From contig PBEB01000014.1 in assembly GCA_002717505.1 (NCBI GenBank), positions 1 to 64,000 of the forward strand: DNA of 64,000 bases. The letters run 5' to 3'. Source of the stretch: Leptospiraceae bacterium (GTDB taxonomy: Bacteria; Spirochaetota; Leptospiria; Leptospirales; Leptonemataceae). Position numbers and translations under genes: made by a program. The notes below the pieces were generated by a model. That model did not search any database. It worked only from the letters and a program-made list of their open reading frames with translations, and was not told where the DNA came from. Shown here piece by piece: positions 10,992 to 47,959 of the stretch. Every line of letters begins with the position of its first letter. Position 1 is the first letter of the stretch.

Positions 10992-12866
10992 TCACGGAGT
11001 GCAGGCTAGATGGGCTTCTATGGGTCCAATAGAATAAAAGCCATCCCCTCCAGGTCTTGCACCAGATAAAGCATCTGGCAGTACCGGCTGCGATATTGCT
11101 GTCGGATCTACGCCGCCTTCTGAAACCGAGCAAGGATTCGAGACGGAAAAACGAAAATCGCTAGAACCATTCACAAAAGACGGCGTAAAGGAAATATTCC
11201 CCGTAGAAGTAGCGCCGGTGTACAGAGTTCCACAGCCGGAGTTTGTACCGAAGTTGCCGGTACATATACTCGGGAAGCTCTGAACCGAAGTTCGCAATAG
11301 AGCCCCCGGACAATCCCAGAGATTATTGTTCCGGATCCCCAGAGTCGCTGGCAGACCGGCAAGATCACGAATACAATATTGATTGGTTCCTCCACCGGCC
11401 TGGATCAGATTGTTATAAACTGGTCCGGTGGGATTCGCCCCGATCTCCAATCCGATGGACTCGGTGGCCGCCGTGGACTGACTTCGTATATAGTTATGGC
11501 CAATGCGCCAATTCCCGGCAGCATTGATAGCCAGACCATGGCTGATATTGCTGGCATCCCGGGCGAAGAGAAAGCTAGAATCGATTTCTCCATCCCCTCC
11601 ATTGATTTCCATTGCAATGGAACGCTGGGTAGCAGACGAACCCTGAATTACGCTTGCATGTATTCTGACAGTACCGCCATCCACGCGTAGACCCAGTCCA
11701 TCCTGGGAAGTTCCATCCTGAGGTTGAATACGTACTGCTTCGAGCAGAACCGTGCGAGCCGGAGTAGTGTCCACGATCAGGCCGGTCCGCGATGTTGTGC
11801 CAGAACCGGGATCGAGCCGCACATTATGGAATGAGCCACCTCCCATCATATACACTGCAGTAGAGTCTGTTCCGCCGGGCCCCAGGATCTGCAGGCCATC
11901 CAGGCCCGTTTCTGCGTCCAGGGCGGGGTTGAATCTCAAAATGCATTGCTGTGCGCCGCAGCCATTGCCGGAGCCGGTAAGAACAGTACCGTTCGCCCAT
12001 GGATTTCTGGAGGAAAAATCTGCAGAGAATCCTCCCATCAGGGAAATACGGGGGGACATGTTTAAGGCATTGGCTCCCAGGTTATACGTGCCGTTAGCGA
12101 TCTGGATAGCACAACGGTTGGCTCCACCACATCCCGTAGCCTGACTGATCGCATGGGCAATTGTAGCACAGGGAGTGGTAGAAACAGAGCAATCGTTCGT
12201 TCCGGTTAAATCGTCACCAGTCATGGAAACGTATCTGGCATCCGAGGCTATGAAATATCGCATTCCTGTACTCAGATTAAAAAATCCATCAGTGTCCTGG
12301 CAGTTCAGTAGCTGTAATATGCGATTGGCTCCTGCATTCCAGTTGCCCGTCGGAGTTACAGTAAGCGTGTCATCCACCACATTTGTGGTGGACCAGGCAA
12401 TGGAATGCGAATCCGTTCCCAGACCGGTGGAACCGTCGACAGTGCAGCCAGTCATGGAGCGAGTAAAGCGAATCTCTATAGGCTGGGATGCTTGAATCAC
12501 AGACTGATCAGCCGGAGTAATCTCCGCTGCCTTCAAGCAATCCACCTGGACGTTGAGACGATCCTCGGTAATAACACCATCACCATTTCGAATACTACAG
12601 ATGTAACCGGCGGGAACGGAAGCCAAGACCACGTCATAGGCTTCCCCGGGCTCGAACCGATCATCGAACTGGAAAGAACCGGATTGACTCAGTGATTGAA
12701 AATGCGCGCCAGATTGAAGAACCAGACCGGGATCTTCCAATCCCGCGACGAATCCGCCCAGAACAACGCCAGGCCCCGGCAGAAAAAGGAATTCTCGATC
12801 TTCTGGATAATTTTTGACGCAACTACCTGCAATTGCAAGCAGCAAGAGGAAGCACCCAACCCTCAT
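10992..12866 (-). CDS. Lipoprotein with Ig-like domain and predicted parallel beta-helix (paralogue A)
   Basis: This is a 624-residue predicted surface or periplasmic lipoprotein. The signal is MRVGCFLLLLAIAGSC with lipidated Cys16. Residues about 40-110 form a small domain ending in VPAGYICSIRNGDGVI and a VQVDC strand, common in leptospiral lipoproteins. A Big_5-like Ig domain follows (TPADQSVIQASQPIEIRFT). Then a cysteine-containing DDLTGTNDCSVSTTPCATI segment leads into short repeated strands with many Asn, Gly and aliphatic residues (NNLIQAGG-type turns), as in right-handed beta-helix proteins such as DUF1565 or pectate-lyase folds. It lies 88 bases downstream of paralogue B in the same direction. 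Function (adhesion, polysaccharide binding) is unknown. Confidence 0.78.
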   Translation of the reverse strand: MRVGCFLLLLAIAGSCVKNYPEDREFLFLPGPGVVLGGFVAGLEDPGLVLQSGAHFQSLSQSGSFQFDDRFEPGEAYDVVLASVPAGYICSIRNGDGVITEDRLNVQVDCLKAAEITPADQSVIQASQPIEIRFTRSMTGCTVDGSTGLGTDSHSIAWSTTNVVDDTLTVTPTGNWNAGANRILQLLNCQDTDGFFNLSTGMRYFIASDARYVSMTGDDLTGTNDCSVSTTPCATIAHAISQATGCGGANRCAIQIANGTYNLGANALNMSPRISLMGGFSADFSSRNPWANGTVLTGSGNGCGAQQCILRFNPALDAETGLDGLQILGPGGTDSTAVYMMGGGSFHNVRLDPGSGTTSRTGLIVDTTPARTVLLEAVRIQPQDGTSQDGLGLRVDGGTVRIHASVIQGSSATQRSIAMEINGGDGEIDSSFLFARDASNISHGLAINAAGNWRIGHNYIRSQSTAATESIGLEIGANPTGPVYNNLIQAGGGTNQYCIRDLAGLPATLGIRNNNLWDCPGALLRTSVQSFPSICTGNFGTNSGCGTLYTGATSTGNISFTPSFVNGSSDFRFSVSNPCSVSEGGVDPTAISQPVLPDALSGARPGGDGFYSIGPIEAHLACTP

Positions 12867-12954
12867 ATACCCAGGGGCCTAACGCTCGGTCCTCGGCGCA
12901 AGGAAAATATAGCCCGGTATATACGAATTCTGACTAACCGCTAATCCCGAAAGC

Positions 12955-14928
12955 TTAAAAGCAACCCAGTGTGGGTTCGTATAGACCTATACTAAAGAAA
13001 CCGTCGACACCTGGTCGCGTTTGATAATCTGCGTCCGGTCGATTCGCAATGCCATAGGTTGCAGGATCCACCCCTCCCTGTGCAGAAAGGCAGGGGGAAC
13101 TGGCCGAATAGTGAAAGTCACCGGCGGCCGAATTCAGAAACATCGGATTGACGGATACATTCTGCCTGGTGCCGGCATCGCTGTACATCGCGGCGCAGGT
13201 GCCATCACCAAATGTTCCGCGATTCGCAGGTATAGAAGTCCCCTCATCGCAAATCGTATCGTACGCGATTCCGCCGCTATCTTCCATGAGACCACTGGGA
13301 CAGCCAAAGAGATTGTTGGAATCCAGATCAACTGTATTGGGAAGCCCTATAGCATCCCGCATGCAAAAAGACTGAGGACTGCCAGTATTCCCGAGGATAA
13401 TATTGTTTATGACTGCGCCTCCAGAAAGGGCAGTCATAAAATGGATTCCAGTAGAAATCCCGGTCAGTGCCTGGTCGGCAAGGATGAGATTGTTGGCAAT
13501 GTTGTATGCACTACCAGAATTTAGCAAGATTCCTGTAGTGTCGTTGGCAATACCCGAGTAGATTCCATTGGTATTGATACTTCCTGCTCCACCAAGCAGA
13601 GCGATGGCAGTGGCATTGGTCACGGCCCCATTCGTCAGAATCTGATTTAAATAGAGGTCGGCGGTACCAGAATTCAAAACTACGGCCCGTGCGATACTCG
13701 CTGTATTTCCCTGAACTTCGATTCGGTTCCCATTGATAATACTGAGTCCTGAGCCGGAAAGATTCAACGCTGTGCGACTGGTGGATCCGTTTCCACCCAT
13801 GATGTGATTGTTTGTCATTCGGACTGCGCCGTTCACCTGCACACCAAGGGAGCTCAAAGCAGAGCTTTCATCGCCTACTATTGTAAAGCCATCAATGAGA
13901 GTAGCCGCGCTGACTGTCCCAGGAACCAGGATATGACATTGGCCGGTGCCGCAGAGGCCACCGTTTCCGACAAGGATTGAATTCCTCGCCTGTGGGAACC
14001 GCGCAGAAAAGTCTGTGGTATAGCTACCCATCAAAGAGATGCGATCAGACATTGTAATCGGAGTGCCAGAAAGATTATAGGTAGCGCGAAAGTGGGGCGC
14101 CACGGCATTGGTGGGTCCTTCGGCTACCAGCACAGCACAATCAATTGTGCCATTGCATCCATTGCCCACGAGCTGCGTAATCGCATAGTTAATAGTAGCA
14201 CATGCACTGGCTACAGTTCCGCAGACTCCAGCATCGGTACCGGATGTGGCTACGTAAGCTACATTGGAGGCCACCAGATAATTTAGTGTAAGATTGATGG
14301 AAACCGACCCGTCCGCGGATTGACAATTATTCAGAATCAGAAATCTCAGACTGCCGGTGCTCCAGCCTGCAGTGGTAAACTCCAGGGTATCATTGGGGAC
14401 ATTGGTTGTAAGAAGATTTGTGCCGGTTATATCCGATGCCAGGTTCGCCGCTGCTGGAGTTGCTGCCCCGTCCACTGTGCACCCCGTCATTGAACGCGAA
14501 AAGACGATTCGGATGGGCTGGGTAGAAAGCAGAACAGAATTATTCTGGGGGCTGATGGTAGCAGCTCGAAGGCAGTTCACCTGCACATTAGTCACATTTG
14601 CATTAACGACACCAGTGCCATTCGTTAGGGTACAGGTGTATCCTGCAGGCACGGATTGAACAACTACGTTATAACTGCTACCCTCGGGATAGCGATTGGA
14701 AAAGGTAAAAGTCCCGGAAACGGCCAGGTTCAGAGTGGCACTTCCACTGGCCAACACCAGTCCCGGGTCCTGAAGCCCCGTAACGCTCACAGACAGGGTA
14801 TAACCGGCATTCAGAGCGCCCAGCCCCAGAATCGATGGATCCTGGGGATAATCCTCAACGCAGTGGGGCAGATATGCCACAGTCAGAAATAGGAGAGTAA
14901 GACTTATCTTACGAATAGGTAAGCACAT
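12955..14928 (-). CDS. Lipoprotein with Ig-like domain and predicted parallel beta-helix (paralogue B)
   Basis: The 657-residue product shares its whole architecture with the gene just downstream. It has a lipoprotein signal ending LTVAYLPHC, a domain ending VPAGYTCTLTNGTGVV, a Big_5-like Ig domain (SPQNNSVLLSTQPIRIVFS and MTGCTVDG), then a Ser/Thr/Asn/Gly-rich beta-helix region with a VCGTVASACATINYAI entry segment. The shared C-terminal pattern (GVDPxx, a PDA/PDAD segment, then RPGxDGFYSIG or RPGVDGFFSIG, ending near a final Cys) makes tandem duplication very likely. It is the first gene of a two-gene transcript. Cys near both ends and in the helix entry could form disulphides. Surface exposure is inference. 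Confidence 0.78.
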   Translation of the reverse strand: MCLPIRKISLTLLFLTVAYLPHCVEDYPQDPSILGLGALNAGYTLSVSVTGLQDPGLVLASGSATLNLAVSGTFTFSNRYPEGSSYNVVVQSVPAGYTCTLTNGTGVVNANVTNVQVNCLRAATISPQNNSVLLSTQPIRIVFSRSMTGCTVDGAATPAAANLASDITGTNLLTTNVPNDTLEFTTAGWSTGSLRFLILNNCQSADGSVSINLTLNYLVASNVAYVATSGTDAGVCGTVASACATINYAITQLVGNGCNGTIDCAVLVAEGPTNAVAPHFRATYNLSGTPITMSDRISLMGSYTTDFSARFPQARNSILVGNGGLCGTGQCHILVPGTVSAATLIDGFTIVGDESSALSSLGVQVNGAVRMTNNHIMGGNGSTSRTALNLSGSGLSIINGNRIEVQGNTASIARAVVLNSGTADLYLNQILTNGAVTNATAIALLGGAGSINTNGIYSGIANDTTGILLNSGSAYNIANNLILADQALTGISTGIHFMTALSGGAVINNIILGNTGSPQSFCMRDAIGLPNTVDLDSNNLFGCPSGLMEDSGGIAYDTICDEGTSIPANRGTFGDGTCAAMYSDAGTRQNVSVNPMFLNSAAGDFHYSASSPCLSAQGGVDPATYGIANRPDADYQTRPGVDGFFSIGLYEPTLGCF

Positions 14929-42898: not shown

Positions 42899-44119
42899 CT
42901 AAAGATTCCTACGGAGTGCCAGATACAATCCTACATCAGGAGTCGTTGAATAGGTAAGGAAGTTTTCAATGAGTGCGAATTCCACCCGATATGCTCCGGC
43001 GGATGTGCTGAAACCTATTCCCAGCTGGTGACCATCGGCCGACAGCCGGCCAAAATCTTTCACAGGCTGGCTAAAGAAAACATATTCCAGAAAGAACTCG
43101 GTATCCTCCATCTGATATCCCAGACGGGGCCTGAAGGTCCATTGCTGAGCCGGTAATTCCAGAAGGCGAAATTCTCTGTCTTCGAAGGCAGAATAGGAAA
43201 ATCCCATAAGCCAGTAATAGGAATGTGGCTTCCGTTCCGATCTCAGTAAGAAAGAAAGCGAAGCTGTGCGACCGGTGTCCCCGGCAATCAAACTGGAAGA
43301 ACCTTCCAGAGAAGCCTGCAAAGACGCTACTACACTGCGGACAGAAAAGAAGCCATCGCCCACGGTCAGGGGAAACTGATAATCGATGTAGAAACGAACG
43401 TCTCCGGGCCCTGATCGGTTACTTGAAGACAGGGAATCCTCCGGGATCCATTGAGGTTTGATTCCCGACAAATACAACGTTTCCGGAGTGACTTCTAGAT
43501 CCAGAGGAGGATCAAATGGGCTCCTGGGATATTTTCGCGGAAGATAGCGATCCTCAATCATCCTCTCCAATCGCATCAGTAACGGATAATACGCGCCCAG
43601 TGGTTCAAAGCTAACATTCAAACGATTCCGGGGGAACTGATCTCTCTGACCCTGGGTTACTCCGATGCTGGAATGAAACCGCTCGATGGAACTGTCCAGA
43701 ACGCCTCCACCCTGAACAATGTAGGGTGCCACCAGGCCTATGCGAATTCGATCGCTCAGTCCGTAAGCCAGGCCTGCATTCAAAGAAATCTCCTCTCCAT
43801 CTAGAATGAAACGGTCAGACTGAATGGACCATACATTCATCCAGTTCGCAGCCAGCACCATCTGCCAGTCCCCACGAACCCAGGGTTCATCGCCGCGAGG
43901 CAGATGAGGCATTCGAATGGATTGAAATGTGGCGCCGTAAGGAGATTCGATGTAGGCCCGGGCTGTAGCCGGCAGCAACAGGGCGATAGCAAGTATCGAG
44001 AAAAGTAAGAACCTCAAGAATCCGGGAATAGAAGAGTGGCGCAAATGGCGTTTGATGCAGCATTTGAAACCAAGGTGAGTAACCGTTTTCTTCCGATGCA
44101 GTCCTTTGGCATGGGGCAT
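42899..44119 (-). CDS. DUF3187-family outer-membrane protein
   Basis: The mature protein after a signal peptide (FLRFLLFSILAIALLLPATARA) is rich in alternating beta strands ending in an aromatic-containing C-terminus (VGLYLALRRNL). The block FILDGEEISLNAGLAYGLS, then VAPYIVQGGGVLDSSIERFH and a QGQRDQFPRN stretch, is the DUF3187 signature. It is probably an outer-membrane beta-barrel. The start is uncertain: ATG 44119 gives a long basic leader; the frame is open to 44317. It follows the glycosyltransferase on the same strand. Confidence 0.72.
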   Translation of the reverse strand: MPHAKGLHRKKTVTHLGFKCCIKRHLRHSSIPGFLRFLLFSILAIALLLPATARAYIESPYGATFQSIRMPHLPRGDEPWVRGDWQMVLAANWMNVWSIQSDRFILDGEEISLNAGLAYGLSDRIRIGLVAPYIVQGGGVLDSSIERFHSSIGVTQGQRDQFPRNRLNVSFEPLGAYYPLLMRLERMIEDRYLPRKYPRSPFDPPLDLEVTPETLYLSGIKPQWIPEDSLSSSNRSGPGDVRFYIDYQFPLTVGDGFFSVRSVVASLQASLEGSSSLIAGDTGRTASLSFLLRSERKPHSYYWLMGFSYSAFEDREFRLLELPAQQWTFRPRLGYQMEDTEFFLEYVFFSQPVKDFGRLSADGHQLGIGFSTSAGAYRVEFALIENFLTYSTTPDVGLYLALRRNL

Positions 44120-44319
44120 TGAAGGAGCTATTATCTGGCTTTGACCGCAACCCGGAAAACAAGTAATCCAGAAAGTTGGATGGTTGAAGCAGGGGCGGAC
44201 GGGAGATCTGTTTAAAAAGGTCCGGACGTGTTTGTGTATCCGGTCCGGTGAGGGACTCCGGAACAGGAAGCGCTGAGCGACCGAGGCCCCGGGGCTAACT
44301 CCTCCTCTCCTATCCATTG

Positions 44320-45366
44320 TTAGATTTTCATACGGTTTAGTTCATATTCCACAACTTTTTTTCGGGCTGAAAACAGCCCCAGAATGCCCCACCAGACGCC
44401 CAGTCCGTAGAAGAAATGGACGCAAAAGAACAGGAATGGCAATCGAAGGACCGATACGGTAGCCCGGGGTTGCCGCATAGATGCAAAGGTCTGAGCACCG
44501 GCAAAGAGGATCAGAGATAGATAGGGAGGAAGTGCAAGAAGGTAGCTGATGGCCCATACGCTCCAGGGCCATCGGATCAAATCCGCCAGAGAAGAAATGT
44601 CCGCCAGGTGGCTGGCTTCTCCAGACAAGCACAGGCCCAGCAAACATACAGGAAGAGCCAGCAGGTAAAGACTGAAGATGGCTGGCAGAAAGAACACCAG
44701 GTTGGAAGCGCGAAAGTCCACCGTCATCTGCTTGAAGCGGCCTCGGCCATAACCCATCAGCATTTTCAAGAAGGCCTTCAGATTAGGCCGAGGGCTTCGA
44801 TGAACCCGAATTTCCGGATCATACATCAGACGGTAGCCTGCGCTCTGAATCCGGTTCATAAATTCATTTTCTTCATTGGGATAAAGATCTTCGCGAAAGT
44901 AACCCAGGCTGTCCAGTATGGACTTACGAATAAACAGGTTACAGAGGATTAGCTCTCGGTCCGTGGCTTCTCGAACAGAACCAGTAGAGCGATATCGATT
45001 GGCCACAGGCCCTACGGCCAATGGCGATGCGAGGATAGCGGAAAACTCTCTCTGCAATCCTTCCTGACCTTCCCTGGGTAAATTGGGACCACCTACCACA
45101 GCGACTTTCTCGTCGTCGAAGAGTTGCAGCGCCCTTTGAAGATTTTGTGGCTCCGGTTCGGAATCGTTATCCAGGAAATAGATGAAACGTCCCTGGCTTT
45201 CTTTGATGCAGGCATTGCGCTGCACGGAAGGTTGATTGCCAGATACGGTGAAGAGCTCCAGGTCAATGCCGGTGCGGTCCATCTGCTTTAGATAGTGCAC
45301 GGCCTCTTCCAGAGACTCTTCTTTGCGATGAGGGATGATGACAGAAAGGCCCGATGCCTGAGACAT
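44320..45366 (-). CDS. Family 2 glycosyltransferase with C-terminal membrane helices
   Basis: This 348-residue protein has a GT-A domain beginning LSVIIPHRKEESLEEAV, with YFLDNDSEPEP as the DxD metal site and PNEENEFMNRIQ as the ED-type acceptor motif. Four or five helices follow (from about residue 220), so it is membrane bound. AGGAA precedes ATG 45366, and the gene begins 26 bases after the radical SAM gene, indicating one transcript. It probably adds a sugar to a lipid or protein carrier; the acceptor is unknown. Confidence 0.87.
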   Translation of the reverse strand: MSQASGLSVIIPHRKEESLEEAVHYLKQMDRTGIDLELFTVSGNQPSVQRNACIKESQGRFIYFLDNDSEPEPQNLQRALQLFDDEKVAVVGGPNLPREGQEGLQREFSAILASPLAVGPVANRYRSTGSVREATDRELILCNLFIRKSILDSLGYFREDLYPNEENEFMNRIQSAGYRLMYDPEIRVHRSPRPNLKAFLKMLMGYGRGRFKQMTVDFRASNLVFFLPAIFSLYLLALPVCLLGLCLSGEASHLADISSLADLIRWPWSVWAISYLLALPPYLSLILFAGAQTFASMRQPRATVSVLRLPFLFFCVHFFYGLGVWWGILGLFSARKKVVEYELNRMKI

Positions 45367-45392
45367 GGGCCATTCCTGCGGATCGGAAAGCC

Positions 45393-46487
45393 TCAGGCGA
45401 GGATTTTTTTGGCCACCAGACCTGCGGCCCGGGTACCGGCTTTGGTAAACTCCCCTGCGTTGAAGCTAATGTTACAGCTAGCGTTGCATTCATGGGTACA
45501 GAAGCATTTCGTATCTACAACCCAATCAGCAATTTCTTTGTTGCGTTTGCTGAACCAGAGTTTTCGAAAATCCATATCGAAGTCCCGGATGTTTCCGATG
45601 AGCTTTTCCGGCCCAAACATCTCGCAAGGATATACATCTCCATTGGGATAGAGGACTCCAAAGATTCGGGATGCATAGCAGAGAGTCTGAAATTTCTTTT
45701 CTTCGTACGTCTTCAGAATCAGATCGTACCGACGCGTAGACATTGCAGCCAGGAACGGATCGAATCCCGGCAACTTGGCATCCATCAGGTCATTTTTGAT
45801 TCGCTGAGTCACGTTTCGAAACTTGGAGATATCGATATTCTTTACTGCTGGATCTTTAGGGGTTCCACGAATCAAGTTAATAGTAACGTTGTCCGGACCC
45901 TGCCCTTTCAGATAGTCATAGACATCTTCTATCTGATCCTGGTTCGTAGCTGTGAATGTAGTAATAAATCCCATTCGCAGATTCTTATATTCCTTCTTAA
46001 GAGGCTTCAAGGCATCGAAGGTTTTCATGGTCGTGCGAAATAAGCCCGAGCCGCCTTTACCGCCGGAACGAATACGATTGTGCTCTTCTTCCAATCCATC
46101 CACAGAGAAGTTCAGGGTGACAAGCATATCTGGACATTTCTCCAGCATGCGAGGAAGGATTTCCTGAGTTTTCTTCAGATACGTTCCGTTTGTAGGAATG
46201 GTCAGATAGTTGGTCTGATTGTGTTTGTAAAATGCATGGGTTACATCGTCCAGATCGTCACGCAGGAAGGGCTCACCGCCACTGTAATTTAAGACAGGGA
46301 ACGGGTCCATGGTAGAAGCCATCTTATCGATTTCATCTACTGTCATTTCCTGGGTAGGCAGGTTGAGCTCCGCCGAATAGAAACAGTGCTCGCATTTCAA
46401 GTTACAGCGGTTGGTAACAAAGAATGTCAGATACAGAGGTGTGCGGCCGCCTTTGTAGAACAGTCGCGGAATATAACGTGCTAGCAT
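45393..46487 (-). CDS. Radical SAM protein with SPASM-like C-terminus
   Basis: This 364-residue [4Fe-4S] enzyme has CNLKCEHC (CxxxCxxC), SGGEPFLRDDLDDV and a LTIPTNGTYL strand of the radical SAM core. The C-terminal region has Cys residues arranged CYAS, VYPCEMFG and CFCTHECNASC, matching the SPASM auxiliary cluster. SPASM enzymes modify ribosomal peptides or cofactors. GGAGG lies just before ATG 46487. The next gene is a glycosyltransferase. I found no precursor peptide in the 443-base gap upstream. Confidence 0.9.
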   Translation of the reverse strand: MLARYIPRLFYKGGRTPLYLTFFVTNRCNLKCEHCFYSAELNLPTQEMTVDEIDKMASTMDPFPVLNYSGGEPFLRDDLDDVTHAFYKHNQTNYLTIPTNGTYLKKTQEILPRMLEKCPDMLVTLNFSVDGLEEEHNRIRSGGKGGSGLFRTTMKTFDALKPLKKEYKNLRMGFITTFTATNQDQIEDVYDYLKGQGPDNVTINLIRGTPKDPAVKNIDISKFRNVTQRIKNDLMDAKLPGFDPFLAAMSTRRYDLILKTYEEKKFQTLCYASRIFGVLYPNGDVYPCEMFGPEKLIGNIRDFDMDFRKLWFSKRNKEIADWVVDTKCFCTHECNASCNISFNAGEFTKAGTRAAGLVAKKILA

Positions 46488-46842
46488 GAAGTCCTCCAGA
46501 GCTTGCAATCTTTATAGATGCAGGTTCGGATTCTATTAAAATCTTCCAGATCTATGAAATTATAAGGCTACATTGTCGCATTTTTGTAGCCTTGCGTCAG
46601 TTAAAGGTACCTCCGGCCACACAGGCAACCCTTTTTTGCACTGCACCAAACTCCTGATACTACCTGAAATCCAAGGAAGCACGACTCCGTAGCCTGATTG
46701 CGTTACAGCGCACTTCGGTTGTAGGCATTACACTGACAGTCTGGGCCAGGCCACAAAATGACCGATCTCCGGTGGAAAACCGTGGCTAAAGAAATCCAGG
46801 CCGGAAGCAGCTGCAGATCTCCTGCCATGGGCAACAAGGCCT
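46488..46842. other. Spacer upstream of the radical SAM operon
   Basis: The gap includes a TATAAT hexamer on the minus strand (46563-46558) and a 7-bp hairpin (GGCTACA 46566-46572 / TGTAGCC 46585-46591, 12-base loop) overlapping its -35 region. That would be the promoter of the radical SAM operon; the -35 match is poor. No small gene is evident on either strand. Confidence 0.45.
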
Positions 46843-46881
46843 TTCCAAACAAAAGAAGCAGCGCCGGGGACGCTGCTTCTT
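46843..46881 (-). terminator. Terminator of the flaA operon
   Basis: A perfect 11-bp stem AAGAAGCAGCG (46853-46863) / CGCTGCTTCTT (46871-46881) with a 7-base loop is followed on the minus strand by TTGTTTGG, giving TTCTTTTGTTT with the last stem bases. A second hairpin, CTTCAGGG/CCCTGAAG at 46901-46920, lies between it and the flaA1 stop codon. Confidence 0.85.
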
Positions 46882-46930: not shown

Positions 46931-47959
46931 TTAGTTTGGCTCATCGACCAGCGGTTTGGCCGGACCGGGAGCCTGGCTACAATCCTTCAGCTCAATAGTG
47001 TCTGGATTACGAGCATGTTTGCGAATCATCTTAAGAAGTTTGTTCTTTCTTTCGCAATCTGCCTGATCGAAATCCATTCCAGCACCGTCGAAGTGCACCT
47101 CGAAAACATTCGTGAGCACCCGCAGCTCATCAAAGAAGATGTAAACGGTTTCCAGGGAAGTCTCTGGAGTCGCTCGCAGCTTGAATTGACGGAACACAAG
47201 GTTCTTGGTCTGAGGATAGGAACTTACGTCCTGGGGAACCTGACGAGGAATCTCTACACTGAGAGGTCTCCATCCCACGAAATCTACGGAACCGAAGTCA
47301 TAAATGTGCGTATCACCTTTCCAGTCTTCGATCCAGCCTTCCAGCTTGTATTCGTTGCCACGACCAAGTACCCATACGGACACTTGCTTTACCTGTCCCG
47401 GCAATTCAACGCCGGTTACACAATCTACCATCTGGGCCCGCTGGGTATCAGCGCCGGAAGAGAGTGCAGGGTTATCATAGCAGCTTCGTTTTTCATAGCC
47501 TTCAGCCAGAGCCAGCTCATTCAGATAAGGACGCGGCCTTTCTGTAGTATACTGATCCGCAGAAGGTGGTCGAATAGTGACTGTGTTATATCCGGGAAAA
47601 GTGAATGCAAACTTCACTCCAAGGACTCGCGCCTTATCGTAGTTTTCATTCTCCTTGATATCTCGAGGAGTTCCCTTGATAAGCTTCACTTCCCTTTCGG
47701 ATTGCAGGTTAGAAGCCTTGGGCTGGTACGGACCCTGAGTCTTTACATCTTTATCTGTAAGGACTTCCCATCCGTATCCGCCTCCGGAATAATCCTGGTC
47801 CCAGCTTTCCACAGTAATGGCACGCAACTCGGCAGAGCTAACATCACTTCCTACTGCAGTTTCCACTCCGGCCTGGCCGGTAATGGCGAAGCCTCCCAGG
47901 AGGGCAGCCACAGAAATTGCGCCTGCCACAGAAGTATAAGTTTTCCAGTTTGCTTTCAT
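46931..47959 (-). CDS. flaA1: Flagellar filament outer-layer (sheath) protein FlaA1
   Basis: This 342-residue exported protein is of the spirochaetal FlaA family, which coats or caps the periplasmic flagellar filament and affects its curvature. It has a signal peptide ending near [11 protein letters not shown], then [32 protein letters not shown] and the FlaA signature [22 protein letters not shown] with [14 protein letters not shown]. It has a longer insert and a Cys-containing tail compared with FlaA2. It begins 27 bases after flaA2, as in Leptospira where the two are adjacent. The operon ends in a strong terminator. Confidence 0.9.

Follow-up and report, generated by a model that had tools for sequence, protein, structure and literature searches.

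A widespread gene pair of a radical SAM enzyme and a membrane glycosyltransferase as a candidate system for tailoring surface sugars

On what does a radical SAM (rSAM) enzyme act whose gene stands directly beside that of a family 2 glycosyltransferase (GT2)? The question is raised by the window (the whole stretch of 64,000 nucleotides analysed here, from a Leptospiraceae bacterium), in which the two genes are followed by a third, for a DUF3187 protein. The earlier note on this DNA had described three genes on one strand, with gaps of 26 bases between the first two and of 443 bases upstream of the rSAM gene. Our analysis agrees with it on this: all three genes are real and lie on the minus strand where it had placed them (Table 1), and both gaps are exact, while GT2 and DUF3187 are separated by 2 bases. 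In congeners the upstream gap holds no coding sequence. Its best-kept stretch among five congeners is the promoter-like block, which reads on the minus strand GTGCAGTGCAAAAAA, then TTGCCT, 17 nt and TTTAAC. A search of the window against Rfam returned zero matches.

Table 1. Features of the rSAM-GT2 locus in the window.
Feature	Position	Strand	Remarks
rSAM	45393-46487	-	364 aa; ATG at 46487, GGAGGA ahead
GT2	44320-45366	-	348 aa; PF13632 and PF00535 above cut-off
DUF3187 protein	42899-44317	-	PF11383, 5e-28
Promoter-like block	46590-46650	-	conserved in congeners, upstream of rSAM gene
Intrinsic-terminator-like hairpin	46853-46881	-	13 pairs, after flaA1
flaA1, flagellar sheath gene (context)	46931-47959	-	gene order same across genus

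What is conserved is the pair of rSAM and GT2, without the third gene. A scan of about 85,000 species genomes with two patterns, one of them the peptide KCFCTHE, fetched 61 loci, and in 55 of the 60 usable loci a GT2 gene lies on the same strand within 300 bp of the rSAM relative. The invariance of KCFCTHE in the scanned loci is partly ascertainment, the peptide being itself a search pattern; C[FY]CTHE variants do occur in a sample of loci chosen without any sequence pattern, and there, too, a GT2 gene is within 300 bp of rSAM on the same strand in 28 of 30 loci. The pair is found in a dozen or so phyla, bacterial and archaeal, and its loci span Spirochaetota, Nitrospirota, Pelagibacteraceae, Betaproteobacteria, Opitutae, Melainabacteria, Omnitrophota, Planctomycetota and DPANN archaea. 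Gene order varies by lineage (GT first in 34 of 50 loci, rSAM first in 16), but adjacency is kept. The trees of the two proteins are correlated: over 50 pairs r=0.73, against a maximum of 0.22 in 2000 shuffles, and after de-duplication to 25 pairs r=0.67, against a maximum of 0.50 in 5000 shuffles. Both genes occur in the same 8 of 48 class-level genomes, being co-present even where they are unlinked (G008). Within the phylum of a Nitrospirae genome (G061), rSAM was found in 56 of the 246 genomes sampled. In collections of phages and plasmids, a single remote copy turned up in a 735-kb phage (two records of equal length) and another in a Parabacteroides plasmid. Other spirochaetes possess the GT without the rSAM, so that the rSAM would seem to be an addition to a GT2/GT-C route; in two of these GT-only spirochaetes the GT adjoins a long membrane protein, which in one (G049) is TMEM260-like by Pfam. 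No description of such a pair came up in the literature searches, which is weak evidence of novelty as subscription papers and preprints were mostly outside their coverage. The adjacency of the two genes shows coupling, not chemistry.

Membership of the enzyme in the radical SAM superfamily is evident from its CxxxCxxC motif, its match to Pfam Radical_SAM (PF04055, 1.6e-16) and its modelled fold: C28, C32 and C35 are invariant in 51 sequences, and the AlphaFold model (mean pLDDT 91.9) fits rSAM folds. Beyond this motif the same 51 sequences share five invariant auxiliary cysteines, C270-x17-C288-x39-C328-x-C330-x3-C334. The label "SPASM", which the earlier note had given to the enzyme, therefore holds as a Pfam match (PF13186, 6.5e-05; 23.6 bits vs a cut-off of 21.5) but not by the cysteines, since the seven-cysteine motif that defines SPASM domains with two auxiliary clusters (PMC6231123) is absent. 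Judged by its sequence, the auxiliary domain would be twitch-like, with a one-cluster pattern. BtrN was considered as the nearest auxiliary domain and rejected, as the isolated domain profile matched anSME only, and weakly. No curated rSAM family was found above its cut-off, and the enzyme does not group with a family of defined substrate; such a grouping would have been fatal to the proposal of the earlier note, by the note's own terms. The solved folds near the model include the sugar enzymes BlsE (TM 0.60/0.66) and DesII. However, the peptide maturases CteB, anSME and SkfB outrank both in fold and sequence searches, so that the fold alone leaves the substrate class unsettled.

The partner is a GT2 by its profile, its acidic metal-binding motif (DND, D66/D68) and its conserved catalytic acid (E165), and D66, D68 and E165 are invariant in 42 paired GTs. 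Hydrophobic helices at the C-terminus (about residues 196-330; mean pLDDT of the AlphaFold model 91.4) form a predicted membrane anchor. The paired GTs are very diverse, the window GT being only 12-30% identical to those of other phyla. A 99% branch nevertheless parts the paired GTs from most of the unpaired DPM/AglJ-like GTs of the same loci: the window GT and nearly all other paired GTs are not on the DPM/AglJ-like side, the exceptions being the adjacent GTs of two loci (L049 and L074). This diversity, together with the two DPM-like cases, indicates that different lineages may make different products. In NCBIfam the window GT matches MftF best (3.5e-22), and MftF matches all 42 paired GTs; for the unpaired DPM-like GT2s of the same loci, MftF is not the best match.

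Among the 112 operon neighbours of the pair are radical SAM (18), B12-binding (11), GT2 (9) and PMT_2 (8) proteins, epimerases (6) and ArnT C-domains (3). PMT/ArnT/TMEM260-like GT-Cs, B12-rSAMs, epimerases and GT2s of DPM-like type are thus found near it, but glycan genes are missing from the surroundings of many Nitrospirota pairs. Three genomes (G008, G010 and G027) have an additional GT-C-like paralogue next to the pair genes. In the window's genus no dedicated GT-C adjoins the pair, and the GT-C gene is unlinked. A GT-C as a strict third component was dismissed for this genus, given that the family occurs in most of the order and an extra copy is near the pair genes only in those three other genomes.

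The recurrence of the pair in so many phyla suggests that it probably builds and chemically tailors a surface sugar. We consider it likely that rSAM and the membrane-anchored GT2 constitute a two-gene module whose product is a sugar altered by radical chemistry and carried on a glycan or glycolipid of the cell surface. On the inner side of the cytoplasmic membrane GT2, by its predicted anchor, would attach a sugar to an acceptor that is carried on a lipid or belongs to the envelope. The rSAM enzyme may then abstract a hydrogen from the transferred sugar, or else from the donor or acceptor next to it. By analogy with BtrN and other twitch enzymes, it could oxidise, epimerise or deoxygenate the sugar, its single auxiliary cluster serving as a putative electron relay. 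In several lineages, as the neighbouring genes indicate, a GT-C might pass the finished unit to the final acceptor outside. By its modelled fold and its gene context, the rSAM enzyme is a candidate for a sugar-modifying enzyme in the manner of BtrN, BlsE and DesII. The suggestion of the earlier note that a glycolipid might be modified is supported in kind, as the pair is deeply conserved and often located among lipid-linked-sugar genes.

Three other explanations have to be weighed. On the one hand, the pair could belong to a mycofactocin-like system of RiPP or glycopeptide-cofactor type, in which rSAM and GT2 would take the parts of MftC and MftF, the former maturing a peptide whose gene lies elsewhere and the latter glycosylating the matured peptide. 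The matches to MftF given above, matches of MftC to 50 of the 51 rSAMs and the leading position of SkfB, anSME and CteB in the searches speak for it, yet the likeness is far under the curated NCBIfam cut-offs (63 bits vs 265 for the window rSAM and MftC, 79 vs 280 for the window GT2 and MftF), which are not reached across all members either (best E-values 1e-20 for MftC and 3.4e-39 for MftF), and the rSAM has better matches than MftC. MftF-likeness was set aside as evidence of mycofactocin, consisting of sub-threshold matches across a broad paired class. Within 1.5 kb of 60 pairs there is no conserved short ORF, only antisense shadows of conserved genes; a PqqD-like RRE (PF05402) has no match in the window genome or in four others (G002, G004, G008 and G010) and a single one, unlinked to the pair, in G027; the 364-aa enzyme itself contains no RRE domain; and the neighbours are lipid-linked-sugar genes, not peptidases. 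Peptide modification is hence unlikely, and the doubt voiced earlier, that no precursor was visible, is borne out.

Alternatively, rSAM might modify the lipid part, a polyprenol carrier or membrane lipid headgroup, and GT2 glycosylate that lipid, as in the HpnH/HpnI hopanoid or tetraether pathways. The predicted membrane anchor of GT2 would suit such a role, HpnI and HpnB are among the sub-threshold matches of the paired GTs, the tetraether synthases Tes/GDGT-MAS are among the rSAM matches, and a Rieske-type protein adjoins the pair in two SAR11 loci. However, no match reaches a curated cut-off and the recurrent neighbours are without hopanoid or isoprenoid genes, so that we regard this explanation, too, as improbable.

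The DUF3187 protein is probably an exported outer-membrane barrel. The first approximately 95 residues of its ORF are missing from congeners, and by sequence comparison the true start probably lies downstream of the annotated one, just before a signal-peptide-like stretch. Of the gene group seen in the earlier note, the pair has stood and DUF3187 has not: it comes directly after the pair in the window's genus alone and was therefore rejected as a conserved partner; it may be a co-transcribed passenger or a genus-specific addition. That the trio acts jointly, with rSAM and GT2 modifying or glycosylating the barrel, as the earlier note had considered, or the neighbouring FlaA proteins, is very improbable in spite of the tight spacing, the flaA synteny across the whole genus and a flaA2-flaA1 pair about 3.7 kb from the rSAM gene in G008, because in G010 and G027 DUF3187 is not linked to the pair and in G008 it was not found, pairs occur in archaeal, SAR11 and Nitrospirota loci that lack DUF3187 or flaA, and the terminator-like hairpin splits flaA1 from the rSAM gene.

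Returning to the tailoring of a surface sugar, we give about even chances to the wider claim that rSAM and membrane GT2 form an undescribed system, shared by DPANN archaea and many phyla of bacteria and often located in glycan loci, which modifies glycans or glycolipids of the envelope by radical chemistry. If true, this would be a new class of carbohydrate radical tailoring beyond antibiotic pathways. A radical SAM enzyme that has auxiliary clusters is often assumed on sight to be a peptide maturase; one tied to a GT, with neither peptide nor RRE, points to surface-sugar radical chemistry in organisms as different as SAR11, Nitrospirota, relatives of leptospira and tiny archaea. Through the pair, envelope glycans and many rSAM genes that are still uncharacterised become open to testing.

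Among known systems, mycofactocin resembles the pair in combining an rSAM/SPASM enzyme (MftC) and a GT2 (MftF) in one pathway, but the pair has no precursor and no PqqD-like RRE, other neighbours and a five-cysteine auxiliary domain. SkfB, a twitch-domain sactisynthase, is the best solved-structure sequence match of the 51-member rSAM profile. It has a one-cluster domain, as is predicted for the window enzyme, and likewise uses a CxC motif; the match spans the rSAM core only, and the N-terminal RRE and the precursor peptide of SkfB have no counterpart with the window enzyme. BtrN, BlsE and DesII act on carbohydrate-like small molecules in aminocyclitol and sugar biosynthesis, and BtrN has a one-cluster twitch domain such as that proposed here. 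In contrast to the pair, these enzymes belong to antibiotic pathways, are soluble and have no dedicated membrane GT2 as partner, their sequence similarity to the window rSAM is remote, and the latter has an extra cysteine (CxCx3C). In hopanoid synthesis (HpnI as GT2, HpnH and HpnJ as rSAMs) and arsenosugar synthesis (ArsS with a TIGR04283 GT), an rSAM/GT2 pathway likewise tailors a glycolipid or glyco-metabolite, but the GT matches to these routes are below cut-off and their accompanying pathway genes were not seen at the pair. The ArnC/ArnT and DPM synthase/PMT routes share the GT2 plus GT-C logic of the pair's loci in several lineages, where an ArnT-, PMT- or TMEM260-like GT-C adjoins the GT or the pair; unlike in these routes, the paired GT is not of the DPM/ArnC class in the tree, and the radical SAM partner is additional.

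The order flaA2-flaA1-rSAM-GT2-DUF3187, with a radical SAM (rSAM) gene and a glycosyltransferase gene of class GT2, is kept throughout the window's genus. The window's source is a draft genome of 4.4 Mb, and the relatives that share these genes are MAGs bearing the title Leptospiraceae or Spirochaetaceae. The earlier note had read rSAM, GT2 and DUF3187 as one group; the first two are indeed kept together widely, whereas DUF3187 adjoins them in the window's genus and drops away outside it, being unlinked in G010 and G027 and not found in G008 (all three genomes of other genera). The conserved unit is the rSAM-GT2 pair, not the trio.

Features of the locus in the window
Feature	Position	Strand	Remark
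rSAM gene	45393-46487	minus	first gene of the trio
GT2 gene	44320-45366	minus	26 bases from rSAM gene
DUF3187 gene	42899-44317	minus	2 bases from GT2 gene
flaA1	46931-47959		bounds the 443-base gap upstream of rSAM gene; flaA2 lies beyond
Conserved block	46590-46650		promoter-like TTGCCT-17-TTTAAC; sole block kept in the gap across five congeners
Hairpin	46881-46853		13 pairs, then T's; closes flaA1

Both flaA genes match NCBIfam Leptospira FlaA models, with scores under those models' cut-offs. Because the gap holds a promoter-like block and a hairpin closes flaA1, rSAM-GT2-DUF3187 looks like a transcription unit of its own, separate from the flagellar one. The N-terminus of the DUF3187 reading frame exceeds that of its congeners by about 95 residues, and the annotated start is therefore probably wrong. 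Elsewhere in the window (10992-14928), two large, visibly related putative lipoproteins of 624 and 657 aa lie in tandem and have SMTGCTVDG-like motifs in common.

Searching about 85,000 species genomes with an rSAM alignment, and with the peptide KCFCTHE as one pattern, gave 61 loci; in the tree of their rSAMs more than 12 phylum-level groups are represented, among them DPANN archaea, SAR11, Nitrospirota and Melainabacteria. With the truncated locus L096 left out, a GT2 gene lies within 300 bp of rSAM on the same strand in 55 of 60 loci. This arrangement is missing from L040, L042, L043 (opposite strand), L051 and L061, and at L061 a paired-class GT sits at a distance of 4 kb. Since KCFCTHE had served as a pattern, adjacency was examined again in a sample picked by taxonomy alone, 246 genomes from the phylum to which G061 belongs (titled Nitrospirae, source of locus L068). 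There, rSAM occurs at E < 1e-40 in 56 genomes; 30 loci were inspected, and 28 of them have a GT2 directly next to rSAM on the same strand (27 upstream, 1 downstream).

The two genes are coupled. Their order differs between loci (GT first in 34 of 50 pairs, rSAM first in 16), so that adjacency has been maintained despite rearrangement. For the tree distances of rSAM and GT, the correlation is 0.73 with 50 pairs, against a null maximum of 0.22, and 0.67 with 25 pairs after de-duplication, against a null maximum of 0.50. In a tree of 71 GT2s, a 99% branch separates the paired GTs from most unpaired DPM/AglJ-like GT2s found at these loci; of the adjacent GTs, those of L049 and L074 depart from this pattern. 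In the window's class, 48 genomes were compared: the 8 that have rSAM (E < 1e-160), from 4 genera, are precisely the 8 that have its specific GT (E of 4e-101 or better). For seven of these GTs the score is inflated, since their genera went into the GT model; G008, which was outside the model, carries both genes, 300 kb apart. Four more distant spirochaetes possess the GT without rSAM; in two of the four, G049 and G058, the next gene encodes a long membrane protein with a start typical of TMEM260-like GT-C, an identity backed by Pfam for G049. By this distribution, rSAM behaves as an accessory to a GT2 route, not vice versa.

The gene context is of glycan type in many lineages. Pfam matches among 112 co-directional neighbours include radical SAM (18), B12-binding (11), GT2 (9), PMT_2 (8), NAD-epimerase (6) and the ArnT C-domain (3), and in Betaproteobacteria and Opitutae a PMT/ArnT-like GT-C adjoins the pair. 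G008, G010 and G027 each have, next to GT or rSAM, a further copy of a multi-helix membrane family of about 600 aa (e.g. L031:4808-6595, L121:8050-9903) that most genomes in the window's order possess (26 among the 61 relatives examined); the family has no Pfam name, and we call it 'GT-C-like' by inference from length, hydrophobic helices and position. G008 also has flaA2-flaA1 about 3.7 kb from rSAM (L032:12823-14614), perhaps a remnant of synteny; this was not seen in G010 or G027.

Two SAR11 (Pelagibacteraceae) loci, L044:3069-8851 and L048:4032-9850, encode rSAM, its GT2 and a further GT2, a Rieske-type protein of 102 aa, a protein of 206 aa that could complete a Rieske oxygenase, and a weakly matching PMT-like membrane protein; they are possibly a six-gene version of the module. 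On a Parabacteroides plasmid (L164, NZ_OY725749.1:6932-9409), a remote rSAM relative (29% identity) is directly followed by a different glycosyltransferase that bears a lipid glycosylation annotation; this may be an independent rSAM-glycosyltransferase pairing. Another remote relative, in a 735-kb uncultured phage record (L165, LR756501.1:4923-5975), sits among genes that by eye resemble sugar- or methyltransferase-related ones; no paired GT2 was detected beside it.

The fold classes of both enzymes are clear. In rSAM, CxxxCxxC and five further cysteines (C270-x17-C288-x39-C328-x-C330-x3-C334) are invariant. SPASM domains have by definition seven cysteines and two clusters, twitch domains one cluster (PMC6231123). 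As the auxiliary cysteines number five, and as the twitch enzyme SkfB likewise uses CxC (PMC6231123), twitch-like is, judged by the cysteines, the most fitting term for the auxiliary domain. Of the NCBIfam rSAM models among the matches listed, none comes near its own cut-off. The predicted model (mean pLDDT 91.9) matches CteB, anSME, SkfB, DesII, MoaA and BlsE in fold, a mixture of peptide, sugar and nucleotide substrates, and the fold therefore does not decide the substrate class. For a peptide substrate, no conserved reading frame was found in the 443-base gap across five congeners, where the earlier note had seen no precursor, nor a conserved short ORF beside the pair, nor a PqqD-like RRE in the window's family. 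In GT2, D66/D68 and E165 are invariant, and the hydrophobic C-terminal helices predict anchoring in the membrane. Its nearest profile is the mycofactocin glycosyltransferase MftF, yet the score is far under the cut-off.

Radical SAM enzymes acting on sugars and rSAM-GT partnerships are kinds already known; this rSAM-GT2 family, its spread and its being without a RiPP component appear undescribed in the literature searched, mostly without subscription papers and preprints. We infer that GT2 would add a sugar onto a lipid-carried or envelope acceptor, and that rSAM would abstract a hydrogen from this sugar and then oxidise, epimerise or deoxygenate it. The auxiliary cluster would serve as an electron relay, on the model of the role proposed for that of BtrN (PMC9012708).
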